Source: Aureimonas sp. AU22
GTDB taxonomy: Bacteria > Pseudomonadota > Alphaproteobacteria > Rhizobiales > Rhizobiaceae
Assembly: GCF_001463745.1 (NCBI RefSeq)
Contig: NZ_BBWJ01000004.1
Location: 310,001 to 374,000 of the forward strand
Direction of reading: 5' to 3'
DNA length: 64,000 bases
Part shown: positions 47,247 to 55,178 of the stretch, one piece after another
Layout: the number at the start of each line of letters is the position of its first letter
Numbering within the stretch: the stretch's first letter is position 1
Notes under the pieces: generated by a model
The model's database searches: none
Seen by the model: only the letters and a program-made list of their open reading frames with translations
Told to the model about the DNA's origin: nothing
Program-made: the position numbers and the translations under genes

Positions 47247-48386
47247 TCAGGCGGCGGCCGACGCCCCGGCGCCCGTCGCGTCCGTCACGACCGGCGCAGC
47301 CCGTTCCAGGGGACGCGCGGCGTGGCCGATCCGGCCGTGGACGAGATCGTGGATGAAGCCGAGCTTGGCGATCACCGTCGGCGACAGGACGAAGGGGTAG
47401 AGGTCCTGCAACCCCATGGCGCGATTCATCGAGTTCAGCGCCTGGCTGACAGCGAGCCAACCGTCGTTGATCTGGGTGATCGTGGTCTCGTCGTCATACA
47501 CCTTGAAGTCGAGGTCGGTGGTCAGAATCCCGTCGCGATCGAGCCGAGGGTGGATCGTCATGCCCCAGGAACCGGCGACTTCCAGCGAATCGACGATATG
47601 AAGGTAGTGCGCCCAGGTCTCGGCGAAGTCCTCCCACGGATGAACGGCGGCATAGGACGAGACGAACTCCTCCTGCCAGTTGGGCTTCGGACCGTTGGCA
47701 TAGTGGATCTTCAGCGCCTCGCCGTAGTCCTGGCGGTCGTCGCCGAACATGGCGCGGCATTCGTCCAGCGCACCGCCGTCGCGCACCAGGATGTCCCAGT
47801 ACCAGTGGCCGACCTCGTGACGGAAATGGCCGAGAAGGGTCCGATAGGGCTCGCCCATCGCGGTGCGTCGCGCCTCGCGCTCGGCATCGTCGGCCTCCGC
47901 CAGAGCGACGGTGATGACGCCCTGATCGTGGCCGGTCATCACTTTCTCGCTCGATGCCGGATCGTCGGCCAGGAACTTGAAGCCCAGACCCTCAGGGTGC
48001 TCGTCACGGGTGTAGAGAGGCAGTTGCAGGCGAAGCAGCGTATAGAACAGACGATGCTTGGCGGCCTCCATCTTGGCCCAGAGCGCCTGGTTCTCCGGGT
48101 TCGAGAGGTCCGGCACCATCAGGTTGTGCCGGTCGGCGAGGCAAAGGAGCTCGGGGTTCTCGGCCGGAATGAGCCAGTTGCAGACGCCGTACTGGTAGTT
48201 GTCGCAATAGCGCCAGTGCGAGCCGTCGCTGCCCCTCCCGACCGACACGAAGTCGGTGCCCGCCGGCTCGAGCGCCAGGACGCGGTTGGTGCGCGGCTCG
48301 TAGCCGAGCGCATGGCCGCACCGCTCGCAGAGCACGTTGTTGAAGAAGACGACCTGATCGCAGGACGGGCAGGAGAACAGCTTCAT
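47247..48386 (-). CDS. Putative zinc-ribbon, zinc-binding metallopeptidase
   Basis: 379 residues from ATG 48386. An N-terminal zinc ribbon has C6, C9, C20 and C23 (CPSC, CERC). Three more cysteines at 61, 69 and 82 lie in a conserved region (HWRYCDNYQYGVCNWL). The gluzincin motif is H190-E191-x-x-H194 (RHEVGHWYWD), followed by ECRAMFGDDRQDYGEAL and WEDFAETWAHYLHI, where the third ligand is expected. This is a family of uncharacterised bacterial metallopeptidases. It is divergent from, and in many genomes near, the transglutaminase/ATP-grasp genes, so it may process their product. A near-EcfG promoter precedes it. Confidence 0.82.
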   Translation of the reverse strand: MKLFSCPSCDQVVFFNNVLCERCGHALGYEPRTNRVLALEPAGTDFVSVGRGSDGSHWRYCDNYQYGVCNWLIPAENPELLCLADRHNLMVPDLSNPENQALWAKMEAAKHRLFYTLLRLQLPLYTRDEHPEGLGFKFLADDPASSEKVMTGHDQGVITVALAEADDAEREARRTAMGEPYRTLLGHFRHEVGHWYWDILVRDGGALDECRAMFGDDRQDYGEALKIHYANGPKPNWQEEFVSSYAAVHPWEDFAETWAHYLHIVDSLEVAGSWGMTIHPRLDRDGILTTDLDFKVYDDETTITQINDGWLAVSQALNSMNRAMGLQDLYPFVLSPTVIAKLGFIHDLVHGRIGHAARPLERAAPVVTDATGAGASAAA

Positions 48387-48435
48387 CGGGGATCCCTCGG
48401 GGCGCCCGCCGGCCGGGAGGCGGGGTCGGCGCGGT

Positions 48436-48460
48436 AACTCGGTCGCGCACAAAGGGTTCC
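48436..48460 (-). promoter_or_regulatory. Near-consensus EcfG-type promoter of the zinc peptidase gene
   Basis: On the minus strand GGAAC (48460-48456), 16 bases, then AGTT (48439-48436). It differs from GGAAC-N16-CGTT only in the least conserved -10 base. The distance to the ATG at 48386 (50 bases) is suitable. Confidence 0.5.
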
Positions 48461-48581
48461 AGCGACCAAACCCAAGCGTCCACATGCCAAATCCGACTTT
48501 GCCGCATCGCAGCAGTTTCCGACGCCTCGCCTTGTGCCTACAGTGCGTCTCGTCGAATCCAACGTTCAGGTCCGGGAACCG

Positions 48582-51500
48582 ATGCCGATCCTCGCCGCGC
48601 TGCGTCACCTGACCCACTACCGATACGACCGGCCTGTCGCGCTTGGGCCCCAGACGATCCGCCTGCGCCCGGCGCCCCATTCGCGCACGCGGGTTCCCGC
48701 CTACGCCCTGCGAATCGAACCCGCCGGGCATTTCATCAACTGGCAACAGGACCCGTTCGGCAACTGGCTGGCGCGCGTCGTCTTCCCCGAGAAGGCGCGC
48801 GAGCTGCGCATCGAGGTCGATCTCCTCGCCGACATGACGGTCTACAATCCGTTCGACTTCTTCGTAGAGGAATGGGCCGAGACCTTTCCCTTCGCCTATG
48901 GCGAGGACCTCGCGACCGACCTCAAGCCCTATCTGCAGACCGAGGCCGCCGGCCCGCGCCTCCAGTCGTTCCTTCACGCCGTCGACCTGACGCCCGTTCG
49001 CACGATCGACTTCCTCGTCGCGCTGAACCGCAAGGTGGAACAGGCGATCGACTACACGATCCGCATGGAGCCGGGCGTCCAGACGCCGGAGGAAACGCTG
49101 GAGAAGACGTCGGGCTCGTGCCGCGATTCGTCCTGGCTGCTCGTCCAGGCCTGCCGCCATCTCGGCCTCGCCGCCCGCTTCGTCTCCGGTTACCTCATTC
49201 AGCTGAAGCCCGATCGCGTCGCGCTCGACGGCCCCGCGGGCACGGCCCATGACTTCTGCGACCTCCATGCCTGGGTCGAGATCTACGTGCCGGGCGCTGG
49301 GTGGATCGGCTTCGACCCGACCTCCGGCCTGATGACCGGCGAGAGCCACGTGCCGCTCGCCGCCACGCCGCACTACCGCTCCGCCGCGCCCATTGCCGGG
49401 GCCGTCGAGGCGGCGGAGGTCCAGTTCGACTTCGACATGAACGTCACGCGCGTGTCGGAAGCGCCGCGCGTCTCCAAGCCGTTCTCGGAGGAAAGCTGGC
49501 AGGCGCTGGACGCGCTCGGTGCTGAGGTCGACGCCGGCCTCGAGGCGATGGACGTTCGCCTGACCATGGGCGGCGAGCCGACCTTCGTGTCGATCGACGA
49601 CTTCGAGAGCGGCGAATGGAACGCCGATGCCACCGGACCAGCCAAGGCGGGCCTCGCCGACGGGTTGCTGCGCCGTCTTCAGGCCCGCTTCGCCCCCGGC
49701 GGCTTCCTGCATCACGGCCAGGGCAAGTGGTATCCGGGCGAGACGCTGCCGCGCTGGACCTATTCGATCTACTGGCGCCGAGACGGCCAACCGATCTGGC
49801 GCGATCCGCGGCTGCTCGCCGCCGATGGCGACAAGCCCGCCGCCGCGACGGTGGAAGAGGCGCAGGCGTTGGTCCGCGGGGTCGCCGAGCGGCTTGCCGT
49901 CGATCCGGACAACGCCCTGACCACCTTCGAGGACCCGGCATACTGGCTGACGCGCGAGGCGAGGCTCCCCGAGAACGTCACGGCCGGCGACTCGCGCCTC
50001 GACGATGCCGAGGAGCGCTCCCGCATCGCCAAGGTGTTCGACCGTGGCCTCGCGCAACCGGTCGGGGTGGTGCTTCCCGTTCAGGCTTGGCAGGCCCTGC
50101 CCTCGCGATGGATGTCGGAGCGCTGGACGACGCGGCGCGGCCACGTGTTCCTGGTGCCGGGCGACAGCGCCATGGGCTACCGCCTGCCGCTGGCCTCGCT
50201 CGAGCATCTGCCCCCCGCCCGCTACCCCTACACCCATCCCGCCGACCCGCAGCAGCGGTTCGCGCCCCTGCCGCAACGGGAAGCCCTCGGACAGGTGCAG
50301 GAGCGGATCGAGAAGCCGGATCCTCAACCGGCGTGGAGCCCGCCGGAGGCGGGAGCGGAAGCCGAGATCGGCGGCTCCGTGCGCACCGCGCTCGGCATCG
50401 AGCCGCGCGATGGCATCCTGCACGTCTTCATGCCGCCGCTGGAGACGGTGGAGGCCTATCTCGACCTCCTCGCCGCCGTCGAGGATGCGGCGGCAAGCCT
50501 CGGCCAGCCGGTTCGCATCGAGGGCTACGCGCCCCCCTTCGACCCGCGCCTCGACGTGGTGCGCGTCGCGCCCGATCCCGGCGTGATCGAGGTCAACGTC
50601 CACCCCGCCCGTTCATGGGACGAGGCCGTCGCCATCACCACGGCCGTCTACGAGGCCGCCCGGCAGTCGCGGCTCGGCACCGACAAGTTCATGGTCGACG
50701 GGCGGCATGCCGGAACGGGCGGCGGCAACCATGTGGTGGTCGGCGGCGCGACGCCGGCCGACTCGCCCTTCCTGCGCCGGCCTGACCTCCTGAAGTCGCT
50801 GGTGCTGCACTGGCAGCGCCACCCTTCGCTGTCCTATCTCTTCTCCGGTCTCTTCGTCGGGCCGACGAGCCAGGCGCCCCGGATCGACGAGGCGCGCCAC
50901 GATCAGCTCTACGAGCTCGAGATCGCGATGGCGCAAGTGCCCGCCCCCGCAGAGGGCGCCGCGCCGCCGCCCTGGCTGGTGGACCGCCTGTTCCGCAATC
51001 TCCTCGTGGACGTGACGGGCAACACCCATCGCTCCGAGATCTGCATCGACAAGCTCTATTCGCCGGACGGGCCGACGGGCCGGCTCGGCCTCGTCGAGTT
51101 CCGCGGCTTCGAGATGCCGCCGGACGCGCGCATGAGCCTGGCACAACAACTCCTGATCCGTGCCCTGGTCGCCGCCTTCTGGCGCCGGCCTCTGGCGGGC
51201 CGCTTCGCGCGCTGGGGCACGCAGCTCCACGACCGCTTCATGCTGCCCGAGTTCATCTGGGCCGACTTCCTGTCGGTGCTCGGCGAACTCGGCGACGCAG
51301 GCTATCCCGTCCGACCCGAATGGTTCGAGGCGCAGTGGGAATTCCGCTTCCCCTTCTGCGGCAAGGTCGAACGCGAGGGCGGCGTCTCGCTGGAGCTGCG
51401 CCAGGCGCTGGAGCCCTGGCACGTCATGGGCGAGACGGGTGCGATCGGCGGCACGGTGCGCTTCGTGGATTCCTCGGTCGAGCGGCTTCAAGTGAAGGTG

Positions 51501-51905
51501 GCCGGCTTCGATCCCGCCCGTCACGTCGTCACCTGCAACCGGCGCCCGGTTCCCCTCGCGCCGGGCATCGACATCGGGACCGCGGTCGGCGGCGTGCGGT
51601 TCAAGGCCTGGCAGCCGGCTTCGGGCCTGCACCCGACGATCCCGGTCCATGCGCCGCTGACCTTCGACATCTACGACCGCTGGTCGAATCGCTCGCTCGG
51701 CGGCTGCGTCTACCACGTCGCCCATCCCGGCGGACGCTCCTACGACACGTTCCCGGTCAATGCCAACGAGGCCGAGGCCCGGCGTCTCGCCCGCTTCGAG
51801 GACATCGGCCACACGCCGGGGGCCTTCCACCCCGCGTCCGAGATGCCGGATCCGAGCTTCCCGACGACGCTCGATCTACGGCGGCCGGCCTTCCTTGCGC
51901 TCTGA
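48582..51905 (+). CDS. Transglutaminase-like / DUF2126 fusion protein
   Basis: 1107 residues from ATG 48582. The N-terminal domain ([24 protein letters not shown]) is the beta module of bacterial transglutaminase-like proteins. The papain-like core has the full triad: C180 (SGSCRDSSW), H229 (DLHAWVEIY) and D245 (GFDPTSG). From about residue 310 to the end lies DUF2126 ([18 protein letters not shown]... [18 protein letters not shown]), regarded in comparative studies as related to glutamine-synthetase-fold amidoligases. A protein joining a thiol acyltransferase/peptidase to a possible ligase suggests peptide or amide synthesis and editing. No signal peptide is seen. The next gene starts one base after the stop. 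Confidence 0.88.
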
Positions 51906-51906
51906 C

Positions 51907-54276
51907 GTGTCCCAGACGCAGTCGCAGACGCAAGCGTCCCCCTCGCCCGGCCTGGTCGCGAGACGGGCGGTCGCCGGTGCGTTCGACGAGATGGTCGCAC
52001 CGGACGGAAGCGTGCGCCCCGCCTATCGCCCGGTCGTCGACGCGCTTCAGGCCCTGTCGGGACCGGAGCGCGTGGCACGGTTCGGCGCGGCCGAGCAATA
52101 CCTGCGCGAGGCCGGCGTCTACTACCGCGCCGACGAGGACGGCGGCGCGAGGCTCTGGCCGCTCGCCTTCCCGCCCTTCGTGATCGACCCGGTGGAATGG
52201 CGGGCGCTCGAGGCGGCGCTGGTGCAGCGGGCGACCTATCTGGAGCGGCTGGTCGCCGATCTCTACGGCGAGCGCGCGCTCGTGCGCGAGGGCATTCTTC
52301 CCGGCCGCCTCCTCGGGCACAACCCGGAGTTCCTGCGCCCGCTGTCCCGACAGGGCCTCGGGCCCAAGCCCCTGATCCGCTTTGTGGCCGTGGATCTCGG
52401 ACGCGGCCCCGATGGCACATGGCGTGTTCTGGGAGACCGCACGCAGGCCCCGTCCGGCACGGGCTTCGCACTCGAAAACCGCGTTGCCACGTCGCGTGCG
52501 CTCCCCGACCTCGCCCGCCAGCTCCACGTGCGCCGTCTCGCCGGCTTCTTCGCGCGGTTCCGCGAGACGCTGGAAACCTTGAACGACCAGGACGGGGCGC
52601 GCGTCGGCCTCCTGACGCCCGGACCCTTCAACGAAACCTATTTCGAGCACGCCTATCTCGCCCGCTACCTCGGCTTCCACCTGCTTGAAGGCGGCGACCT
52701 CGTGGTGCAGGGCGACGAAGCGAAGCTACGCACGGTGGACGGGCTGCGGCCCGTCGGCGTCCTGTGGCGACGTCTCGATGCCGACTATGCCGATCCGCTG
52801 GAGCTCTTCTCGCAGTCGCGCATCGGCACGCCCGGCCTCCTGCGGGCGGTGCGCGCGGGCAAGCTCGAACTCGTCAACGCGCTCGGCTCCGGCATCCTTG
52901 AGACCCCGGCCTTCGCCGCCTTCGAAACGGCGCTGGCGAAGCGGCTGATCGGCGAGCCGCTGGCGCTGCGTTCGGTGGATACCCTCTGGTGCGCCGACCC
53001 GGCGAGCCACGCCGAGGTGCGGGGCGGCGATTGGACGCTCGGTCCCGCGTTTCCCGGGCAGACGGGACGCGCCCTCCCCGACCTCGCCCTTCCGCCGGAA
53101 CCGGGCGACGCCGTGCATCTCGTGGCGCGCCGCGTTCCGCCGCTGTCCCGTGCGCCGATGGAGCTGGGCGGCGACATGGTGTCCCGTCCCGTCACGCTGC
53201 GGGTGTTCCTGGCCCGGTCGTCAGAAGGCTGGGATGTCATGCCGGGAGGCTTCGCCCGGGCCTCCCATGCACCAGGCGAGGCTGTGCCGGCGATCGGGGC
53301 CGGCGGGCGATCCATGGATGTCTGGATTCCCGGCGACGAGGCGGACGTGCCGATCACGCTTCTGTCCTCGGCTCGGGATTTCCGCCGCCGCCTTCCGGGA
53401 TCGCTCCCGGCGCGCGCAGCCGACAACCTCTTCTGGCTCGGGCGCAGCGCCGAACGCACCGAGGTCGCGATCCGTCTCTGGCGCGCGAGCCTGGAGCGCG
53501 GCGGCGAGGAGCGAGCGAGCGCCGTCGACGCCGCACGCCGCGCGATCCTGACCCGTTCCGGAATCGCTGCCGCGGACGCGTTGACCGGCATCCACCGCAC
53601 CGCCCGCACGGCCTTCGACATCGCCTCGCGGATCCGCGACCGCTTCTCGCCGGACGCCTGGCGCGTGCTTGCCGAGGTGGTGGAGCTTCTTACCGAAGCG
53701 CGCAGGGCTGCGGCCCCCACCGACCACGCCGCCCTGGCGGGACGACTCCTCACCCGCCTCGCCGGTTTCTCCGGCCTCGTCGAGGAGAACATGTACCAGT
53801 TCGCCGGCTGGCGCTTTCTCCAGTGCGGTCGCCGCATCGAGCGCGGCGAGGCGACGGCGTCGGCCTGTGCCGAATTCCTGGCGGCCGGTGGGGAGGGCGT
53901 CTCCGAGGCGCTGCTCGAATTCACCGACAGCCGCCTCACCTATCGCCGCCGCTTCTCGGTGGAGCTTCATCCCGAGACCGTAGCGGATCTCTGCCTCCTC
54001 GATCCGCTCAACCCGCGTTCCGTGGCCTATCAGGTCGCGGCCGCGCGGCGCGCCATGGCCGACCTTCCGGGCATCCACGCAGGCGAAAGCCTCGACCCGG
54101 CCGCGCGGCGCATCGCAAGGCTTCACGTGCGCCTGGAGACCGCCGTCCCGGCCGAGGTCACACCCGACTTTCTCCGGCGGGTGGCACGGGACCTGCGCGA
54201 CATTTCCGATCTTCTGTCCGCGCGCTATTTCGCGGTGGCCCCCGAAGCCGCGATCGAGCGTCTCGGCAGCGAGTAG
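51907..54276 (+). CDS. Circularly permuted type 2 ATP-grasp / alpha-E fusion protein
   Basis: 789 residues from GTG 51907. Residues about 50-470 are the circularly permuted ATP-grasp domain: RFGAAEQYLREAGVYYRADEDG, ERLVADLYGERALVREG, DLGRGPDGTWRVLGDRTQAPSG and GFALENRVATSR. About 485-785 is the all-helical alpha-E domain (DUF403), opening LPARAADNLFWLGRSAERTE. ATP-grasp enzymes join a carboxylate to an amine or thiol through an acyl phosphate. In many bacteria the two domains are separate adjacent genes, and here they are fused. Substrate and product are unknown. Confidence 0.88.
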   Translation: MSQTQSQTQASPSPGLVARRAVAGAFDEMVAPDGSVRPAYRPVVDALQALSGPERVARFGAAEQYLREAGVYYRADEDGGARLWPLAFPPFVIDPVEWRALEAALVQRATYLERLVADLYGERALVREGILPGRLLGHNPEFLRPLSRQGLGPKPLIRFVAVDLGRGPDGTWRVLGDRTQAPSGTGFALENRVATSRALPDLARQLHVRRLAGFFARFRETLETLNDQDGARVGLLTPGPFNETYFEHAYLARYLGFHLLEGGDLVVQGDEAKLRTVDGLRPVGVLWRRLDADYADPLELFSQSRIGTPGLLRAVRAGKLELVNALGSGILETPAFAAFETALAKRLIGEPLALRSVDTLWCADPASHAEVRGGDWTLGPAFPGQTGRALPDLALPPEPGDAVHLVARRVPPLSRAPMELGGDMVSRPVTLRVFLARSSEGWDVMPGGFARASHAPGEAVPAIGAGGRSMDVWIPGDEADVPITLLSSARDFRRRLPGSLPARAADNLFWLGRSAERTEVAIRLWRASLERGGEERASAVDAARRAILTRSGIAAADALTGIHRTARTAFDIASRIRDRFSPDAWRVLAEVVELLTEARRAAAPTDHAALAGRLLTRLAGFSGLVEENMYQFAGWRFLQCGRRIERGEATASACAEFLAAGGEGVSEALLEFTDSRLTYRRRFSVELHPETVADLCLLDPLNPRSVAYQVAAARRAMADLPGIHAGESLDPAARRIARLHVRLETAVPAEVTPDFLRRVARDLRDISDLLSARYFAVAPEAAIERLGSE

Positions 54277-54284
54277 GCCCATCC

Positions 54285-55178
54285 GTGCTCTACGACATCC
54301 GCCTTCTGATCGCCTATCACTACCCCGGCTTCGTCAACGACGCCCGGCACATCCTTCGCGTCGAGCCACGCGAGGACCGCGGCCAGCGCGTGGTGTCGCG
54401 GCGTCTGGACGTGCGACCGACGCCGGGGGAGATGCACGAAGAAGTCGACTTCTTCGGCAACCGCACGGCCCATCTCCTTCTCGCCCAGCCGCACGACACG
54501 CTGCGTGTCGAACTCGTGACCCGCGTATCGGTGCAACGCCCCGCGCCGCGCCTGGCCGCGACCCCGTCGCCCGGCACCGTCCGCGGTCTCGTCGCGGAGA
54601 GCCGGGCGAGCGAGGGCGACAGTCCGATCCATTTCGGGGGCGCCGGCCAGATCGTCGCTCCGTCCGCGCCGGTTGCTGCCTATGTCGCGGAAACGCTGAA
54701 CGAGGCCCCTTCGATCGGCCTCGGCCTTCTGGCGCTCGCCCGTCGCATCCGCTCGGAGTTTCGGTTCGAAGCCGGCGTCTCGACCGTCGCGACGCGCGTG
54801 GAGGAGACGTTCGCCACACGCCGCGGCGTCTGCCAGGACTTCTCCCATATGATGATCGCGGGGCTGCGCGGCTGCGGCATCCCCGCCGCCTATGCCAGCG
54901 GCTTCCTGCGCACGGAACCGCCCCCCGGACAGCCTCGCCTCGAGGGCGCCGACGCCATGCATGCCTGGGTCGAGGCGTGGGTGGGTCCCGAGGCCGGCTG
55001 GATCGGGCTCGATCCGACCAATGGCTGCCTTGCCGGCGACGACCACGTTCTCGTGGCCCTCGGGCGCGATTACGCGGATGTCGCGCCGATCGACGGGGTG
55101 CTGATCACCACCGGGCCGCAGAAGCATCGCCATTCCGTCGACATGGTGCCGGTCGCCGACGCGTTACCGGATTGTTAG
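54285..55178 (+). CDS. Transglutaminase-like cysteine protein
   Basis: 297 residues from GTG 54285, eight bases after the ATP-grasp stop. It has the same N-terminal beta module as the first gene of the cluster (YDIRLLIAYHYPGFVNDARHILR). The core carries the triad C183 (GVCQDFSHMM), H226 (DAMHAWVEAW) and D243 (GLDPTNG). Such proteins are thiol peptidases or acyltransferases. It is the third member of the cluster and probably acts on the same product, as hydrolase or transferase. No signal peptide. Confidence 0.88.
   Translation: MLYDIRLLIAYHYPGFVNDARHILRVEPREDRGQRVVSRRLDVRPTPGEMHEEVDFFGNRTAHLLLAQPHDTLRVELVTRVSVQRPAPRLAATPSPGTVRGLVAESRASEGDSPIHFGGAGQIVAPSAPVAAYVAETLNEAPSIGLGLLALARRIRSEFRFEAGVSTVATRVEETFATRRGVCQDFSHMMIAGLRGCGIPAAYASGFLRTEPPPGQPRLEGADAMHAWVEAWVGPEAGWIGLDPTNGCLAGDDHVLVALGRDYADVAPIDGVLITTGPQKHRHSVDMVPVADALPDC

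Follow-up and report, generated by a model that had tools for sequence, protein, structure and literature searches.

A conserved transglutaminase-DUF2126 gene cluster of Aureimonas sp. AU22 as a probable module of the predicted ATP-grasp/alpha-E/transglutaminase/Anbu system

Families of ATP-grasp, alpha-E and transglutaminase-like (TG) proteins, together with the proteasome-like hydrolase Anbu, make up a system for peptide modification that Iyer et al. 2009 predicted, as recounted in PMC5666114, PMC6376114 and PMC3597751 (papers given by PMC number are cited throughout from excerpts of their text). According to the excerpts of PMC6376114, the hypotheses on the product of this system lack experimental confirmation. 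The present work concerns a cluster of four genes at positions 47247..55178 of a 64,000-nucleotide stretch of Aureimonas sp. AU22 (contig NZ_BBWJ01000004.1, positions 310,001 to 374,000; hereafter the window), where members of these families are found with DUF2126 (PF09899), a domain bearing the Pfam name 'putative amidoligase'. DUF2126 itself is said to have been part of the same prediction. The cluster is real and conserved, and it belongs to this already predicted system. It probably constitutes its DUF2126 module, with a pseudo-ATP-grasp encoded in the cluster and the intact ATP-grasp core encoded elsewhere, a reading in which we place reasonable, though by no means full, confidence.

Like the predicted ATP-grasp/alpha-E/TG/DUF2126/Ntn-hydrolase system, the cluster brings members of the ATP-grasp, alpha-E and TG families close together; it differs in that this genome carries two loci, in that the ATP-grasp of the cluster is inactive as judged by its sequence, and in that a Peptidase_Mx gene lies adjacent. 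With the Anbu operon (PMC6376114) the cluster shares the circularly permuted (CP) ATP-grasp, alpha-E and TG families, whereas the operon has separate genes, an active-type ATP-grasp and Anbu. The Anbu operon of this genome is locus L004 on contig C15, with no TG in the stretch read. In Burkholderia cenocepacia, the genes I35_5080-83, encoding DUF404/407, DUF403 and two TG proteins, including a large one, belong to the NtrC/sigma54 regulon (PMC5491218). Among the papers searched, none was found for DUF2126; PF09899 turned up in one, on an M. leprae gene. The counterparts in M. tuberculosis are presumably Rv2566-Rv2569c and Rv2409c-Rv2411c. A similar design is that of glutathionylspermidine synthetase/amidase (GspSA), in which an ATP-grasp synthetase is fused to a thiol amidase and the amidase half reverses the bond formed by the synthetase half. 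In the cluster, by contrast, the thiol domain sits on DUF2126 and not on the ATP-grasp (Pfam), the ligase model resembles glutamine synthetase (GS) and the thiol domain is transglutaminase-like. From the GS/GCS2 (YbdK) ligases DUF2126 differs by its ~830 residues with large extra parts.

Transcribed divergently from the rest, P0001 (47247..48386, minus strand) encodes a putative metallopeptidase of 379 aa composed of a zinc ribbon (PF10005) and Peptidase_Mx (PF15887), with CxxC at residues 6 and 20 and HEVGH at residue 190; HExxH is present in 14/15 Peptidase_Mx rows aligned. The plus strand carries P0002 (48582..51905), a protein of 1107 aa in which an N-terminal TG part (PF08379, PF01841) is fused to DUF2126 (residues 276-1100), P0003 (51907..54276), which joins a CP ATP-grasp (~24-475) to alpha-E (500-775) and matches PF14403, PF04174 and PF04168, and P0004 (54285..55178), a second TG protein of 297 aa (PF08379, PF01841). 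One base (51906) separates P0002 from P0003 and eight bases (54277-54284) separate P0003 from P0004, both of which start with GTG. The catalytic triad of P0002 (C180-H229-D245) is intact and present in 115/115 homologues; that of P0004 (C183-H226-D243) is also intact and present in 102/103, the remaining one being a gap (triads read from alignment columns; separate-TG rows counted at a score >= 240 bits). An earlier sequence-only reading of the window had described these genes, gaps, triads and HEVGH, and all were confirmed as written. All Pfam matches in the four proteins score above cut-off; none of the four genes matched Anbu in Pfam, and at E 0.01 their proteins had zero matches in NCBIfam and PADLOC.

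The same reading had proposed that two ligases of the cluster, one of them the fused ATP-grasp, build a tag. This is not supported, because the fused ATP-grasp has lost its motifs, and a second ligase, if any, is encoded elsewhere. The best stretch of P0003 ends at profile position 285/374 (PF14403) and 284/332 (PF04174). It has G176 and R178 where the E-x-N motif of the L004 ATP-grasp has E156 and N158, and it lacks the Lys and the glycine-rich loop (K364 ... GSGGYG in the L004 protein). E-x-N is found in 0/158 aligned fused homologues versus 62/62 stand-alone ATP-grasps, and the strict glycine-loop pattern in 0/158 versus 41/62, with G370, G371 and G373 kept in 62/62 stand-alone proteins; the loop Lys is aligned in 9/158 fused rows, within a poorly aligned stretch. 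The loss of nucleotide-binding residues, set in advance as an observation that would speak against the proposal, was thus found in the alignment. The ATP-grasp part of P0003 retains a glutathione-synthetase-like fold, residues 481-614 are covered in fold comparison mainly by helical bundles, and the fused ATP-grasp is under purifying selection. Since E-x-N is missing in every aligned homologue and selection is nevertheless purifying, the fused ATP-grasp appears to be a conserved pseudoenzyme whose catalytic residues are apparently gone. Inactive ATP-grasps fused to alpha-E have reportedly been remarked on before, in a Pfam text. The stand-alone ATP-grasp profile gave no significant alignment with E. 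coli Gss, the ligand residues of which we take to be D318, E330 and N332 (a literature search on them found nothing). A self-sufficient cluster, in which an active fused ATP-grasp and DUF2126 build a tag that the TG proteins and the peptidase remove, would agree with the retained ATP-grasp fold and compact gene order, but the complete lack of E-x-N in the fused homologues and the fact that DUF2126 was never seen without alpha-E in either genome set make it very unlikely. What is supported instead is a module acting with a separate core.

This core is represented by L004, which holds the second alpha-E match of the genome next to an intact ATP-grasp (profile 1-374 of 374) and Anbu, the latter matching PDB Anbu chains with E 9e-66 to 1e-90. 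The absence of a proteasome-like gene noted earlier therefore holds for the neighbourhood of the cluster and not for the genome. L004 and the corresponding stretch of nine relatives showed no TG (10/10 loci: L004, L102, L103, L108-L111, L113, L114 and L120), while the remaining 30/40 stand-alone loci read do carry one. The ten TG-less loci, all from DUF2126 genomes, seem to form one clade and are therefore counted as one event at least and not as a statistic.

The grouping is maintained across genomes. Among the named loci, which are the best 80 of at least 566 relatives found, 73 keep the one-strand order TG-DUF2126, fusion, TG, and the Peptidase_Mx gene adjoins TG-DUF2126 in near relatives. 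In the family set (n=121 genomes), all 60 genomes with DUF2126, 57 with Peptidase_Mx and 72 with Anbu fall within the 100 with alpha-E; in the phylum set (n=299), alpha-E is present in 156 genomes and accompanies DUF2126 in 84/84, Peptidase_Mx in 45/46 and Anbu in 101/102, the exceptions being G203 and G211. DUF2126 is accordingly found in roughly every second family genome (60/121) and in over a quarter of the phylum set (84/299), four DUF2126 genomes being common to both sets. Both the order kept in 73/80 loci and the confinement of DUF2126 to alpha-E genomes (p 8.5e-31; all tests are Fisher's, uncorrected for kinship) speak against a chance grouping of unrelated housekeeping genes, for which no support was found and which we regard as practically untenable. 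Together with gene order, co-occurrence in the two sets bears out the earlier linking of these families as one system. An intact-type ATP-grasp (46-75% identity) was found in 80/80 phylum-set DUF2126 genomes asked, as well as in all 30 DUF2126 genomes of the family set with a stand-alone locus read, the other 30 being covered by alpha-E only. DUF2126 and the peptidase occur together in 34 genomes (34/46 peptidase genomes of the phylum set, p 1.7e-12), an association that persists within alpha-E genomes (p 0.0007).

Further evidence comes from 36 additional phylum-wide loci, picked partly for a nearby alpha-E match. In 20 of them DUF2126 lies beside an intact ATP-grasp/alpha-E, 18 of the 20 also having the fused gene; Anbu is present as well in L204, L209, L218, L219, L227, L229 and L230, and the peptidase in L210 and L225. 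This side-by-side arrangement elsewhere argues that the two loci of Aureimonas sp. AU22 form one system. Anbu as an obligatory partner of DUF2126 was ruled out, as it is missing in 25/60 family DUF2126 genomes. Within alpha-E genomes, DUF2126 and Anbu show a negative association in the family set (p 0.0002) that is missing from the phylum set (p 0.31). At least one of the two is found in 97/100 family and 134/156 phylum alpha-E genomes, but 'DUF2126 or Anbu' was rejected as a rule in view of the phylum set, where the negative association is missing and 22/156 alpha-E genomes have neither.

As regards DUF2126, its model resembles the GS fold, with YbdK, GS and GmaS as the best solved-fold matches, in line with the ligase-type fold claimed earlier. 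E332, H717, E839, R841, R767, R772 and E670 are invariant in 116/116 DUF2126 rows and were paired with GS by motif only, the roles of the GS residues being those generally assigned to them. DUF2126 may be described, from its model, as a GS-like putative amidoligase. These likenesses, and those of the ATP-grasp, which among solved folds comes nearest to glutathione and glutathionylspermidine synthetases, would also suit a small-metabolite pathway in which a soluble amide, gamma-glutamyl- or glutathionylspermidine-like, is produced by the core ATP-grasp together with DUF2126, the TG-like domains act as amidases and proteins stay untagged. The fusion of a ligase with a thiol domain recalls GspSA in the same sense, and in marine metagenomes these domains correlate with urea metabolism (PMC3597751). 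The co-occurrence of Anbu and a metallopeptidase with the core fits peptide or protein substrates better, however, and we consider this pathway possible but doubtful.

Under the module-plus-core reading, the intact ATP-grasp would activate a carboxylate using ATP and make an amide, and the pseudo-ATP-grasp/alpha-E would bind a substrate, an intermediate or a partner and catalyse no ligation. DUF2126 may serve as the module's own GS-type ligase, extending or amidating the product. The TG domain on DUF2126 and the second TG might act on bonds of this kind, either transferring or hydrolysing them, much as GspSA does with its amidase half, and Peptidase_Mx and, in many genomes, Anbu could remove or recycle the tagged product. 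Because published relatives are nitrogen-regulated, the most likely setting would be nitrogen limitation, with a reversible tag, either an amide or a peptide, being made or used. Anbu is increased when nitrogen runs short, and release of ammonia has been put forward as a hypothesis (PMC6376114, PMC5666114). Along with the NtrC-regulated Burkholderia genes (PMC5491218), this also agrees with plain nitrogen scavenging, where, when nitrogen is limiting, TG-like proteins and peptidases act on proteins or peptides to free ammonia or amino acids and the products are recycled or stored by the ligases. We judge such scavenging unlikely, given that TG triads alone cannot separate hydrolysis from transfer and that neither the window cluster nor L004 was found to have a sigma54/NtrC-like site upstream (best sigma54 score 7/11 at both; threshold 10/11 or better).

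That missing site also weighs against the module-plus-core reading, and so do several other points. The GS-like fold of DUF2126 rests on the model, because no significant profile or PDB sequence match was obtained: the mean pLDDT is 73, Foldseek found none at E <= 0.001 (best 2.8e-3), the DUF2126 profile was not significant against E. coli GlnA with 31 relatives or against YbdK as a single sequence, and it had 0 matches up to E 10 among all PDB sequences. Thr334 occupies the place of the GS metal ligand E131. The co-occurrence tests ignore kinship. DUF2126 occurs without sign of the fused gene, for example in G042, G088, G156, G182 and G383, so the pseudoenzyme is not always needed; the module can dispense with it, but in the sampled genomes not with alpha-E. 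In published work, the Yersinia ATP-grasp frees phosphate from ATP through ligation or hydrolysis, and plain hydrolysis could account for the release; within the excerpts, Yersinia Anbu showed no peptidase activity and stable complexes of Anbu operon proteins were not found (PMC6376114). The Anbu structures of PMC5666114 are taken by its authors to disfavour peptide synthesis and favour protein degradation, and expression was unaltered across several conditions (PMC5666114).

A bolder and tentative version, which we consider rather improbable as a whole, would see a two-locus amide-tagging machine, in which an obligate core of active ATP-grasp and alpha-E serves exchangeable Anbu or DUF2126 modules. 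The DUF2126 module would carry a GS-type ligase on the same polypeptide as the thiol amidase that belongs to it, with the dead ATP-grasp/alpha-E acting as the core enzyme's carrier or regulator, and the machine would act in nitrogen economy. The distinction between a dead and an intact ligase points assays to the stand-alone ATP-grasp and to DUF2126 and away from the fused protein, and showing that the module accompanies a core elsewhere in the genome guides the choice of double deletions.

Several minor observations concern individual genomes. G042 and G088 have DUF2126 without a second alpha-E match, and their loci L045 and L081 show TG-DUF2126 with the divergent peptidase, the fused gene and the separate TG being absent in the stretch read. 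Phylum-set DUF2126 genomes with one alpha-E match are G156, G168, G182, G202, G214, G270, G329 and G383, and in six of these (G156, G168, G182, G214, G329 and G383) ATP-grasp likewise has a single match; some assemblies are fragmented. In G020, TG-DUF2126 with the peptidase (L073) and the fusion with TG (L122) lie on separate contigs. The DUF2126 match is split into two overlapping pieces in G116 (L082) and over two contigs in G095, and in L223 (G383) TG and a shortened DUF2126 are separate open frames. In other lineages (G383, G303, G219, G404) Peptidase_Mx adjoins core alpha-E, ATP-grasp or Anbu genes.

Sigma54-like sites were found upstream of DUF2126 in 2/174 loci (expected 0.75) and of the intact ATP-grasp in 4/62 (expected 0.55). 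NtrC-like palindromes, at 16/174 (expected 5.6) and 2/62 (expected 1.35) respectively, were not used as evidence; 12 of the 16 belong to one genus and were therefore possibly inherited together. In Mesorhizobium they lie upstream of TG-DUF2126 in L133, L134, L142, L153, L158, L163, L164, L169, L173, L176, L177 and L179.

Finally, the cluster interrupts a trehalose/glucan set (40611-62335), with TreY, MalQ and TreZ upstream and a diguanylate cyclase, GlgB, a maltokinase-like protein and an alpha-amylase-like protein, which we take to be probably GlgE, downstream. The stress role formerly read from this position was not supported, while the position itself is conserved in close relatives, where TreZ stays next to the cluster, and partly in rhizobial loci, a GlgB-like gene lying a few kb past the last TG in 24 named ones.
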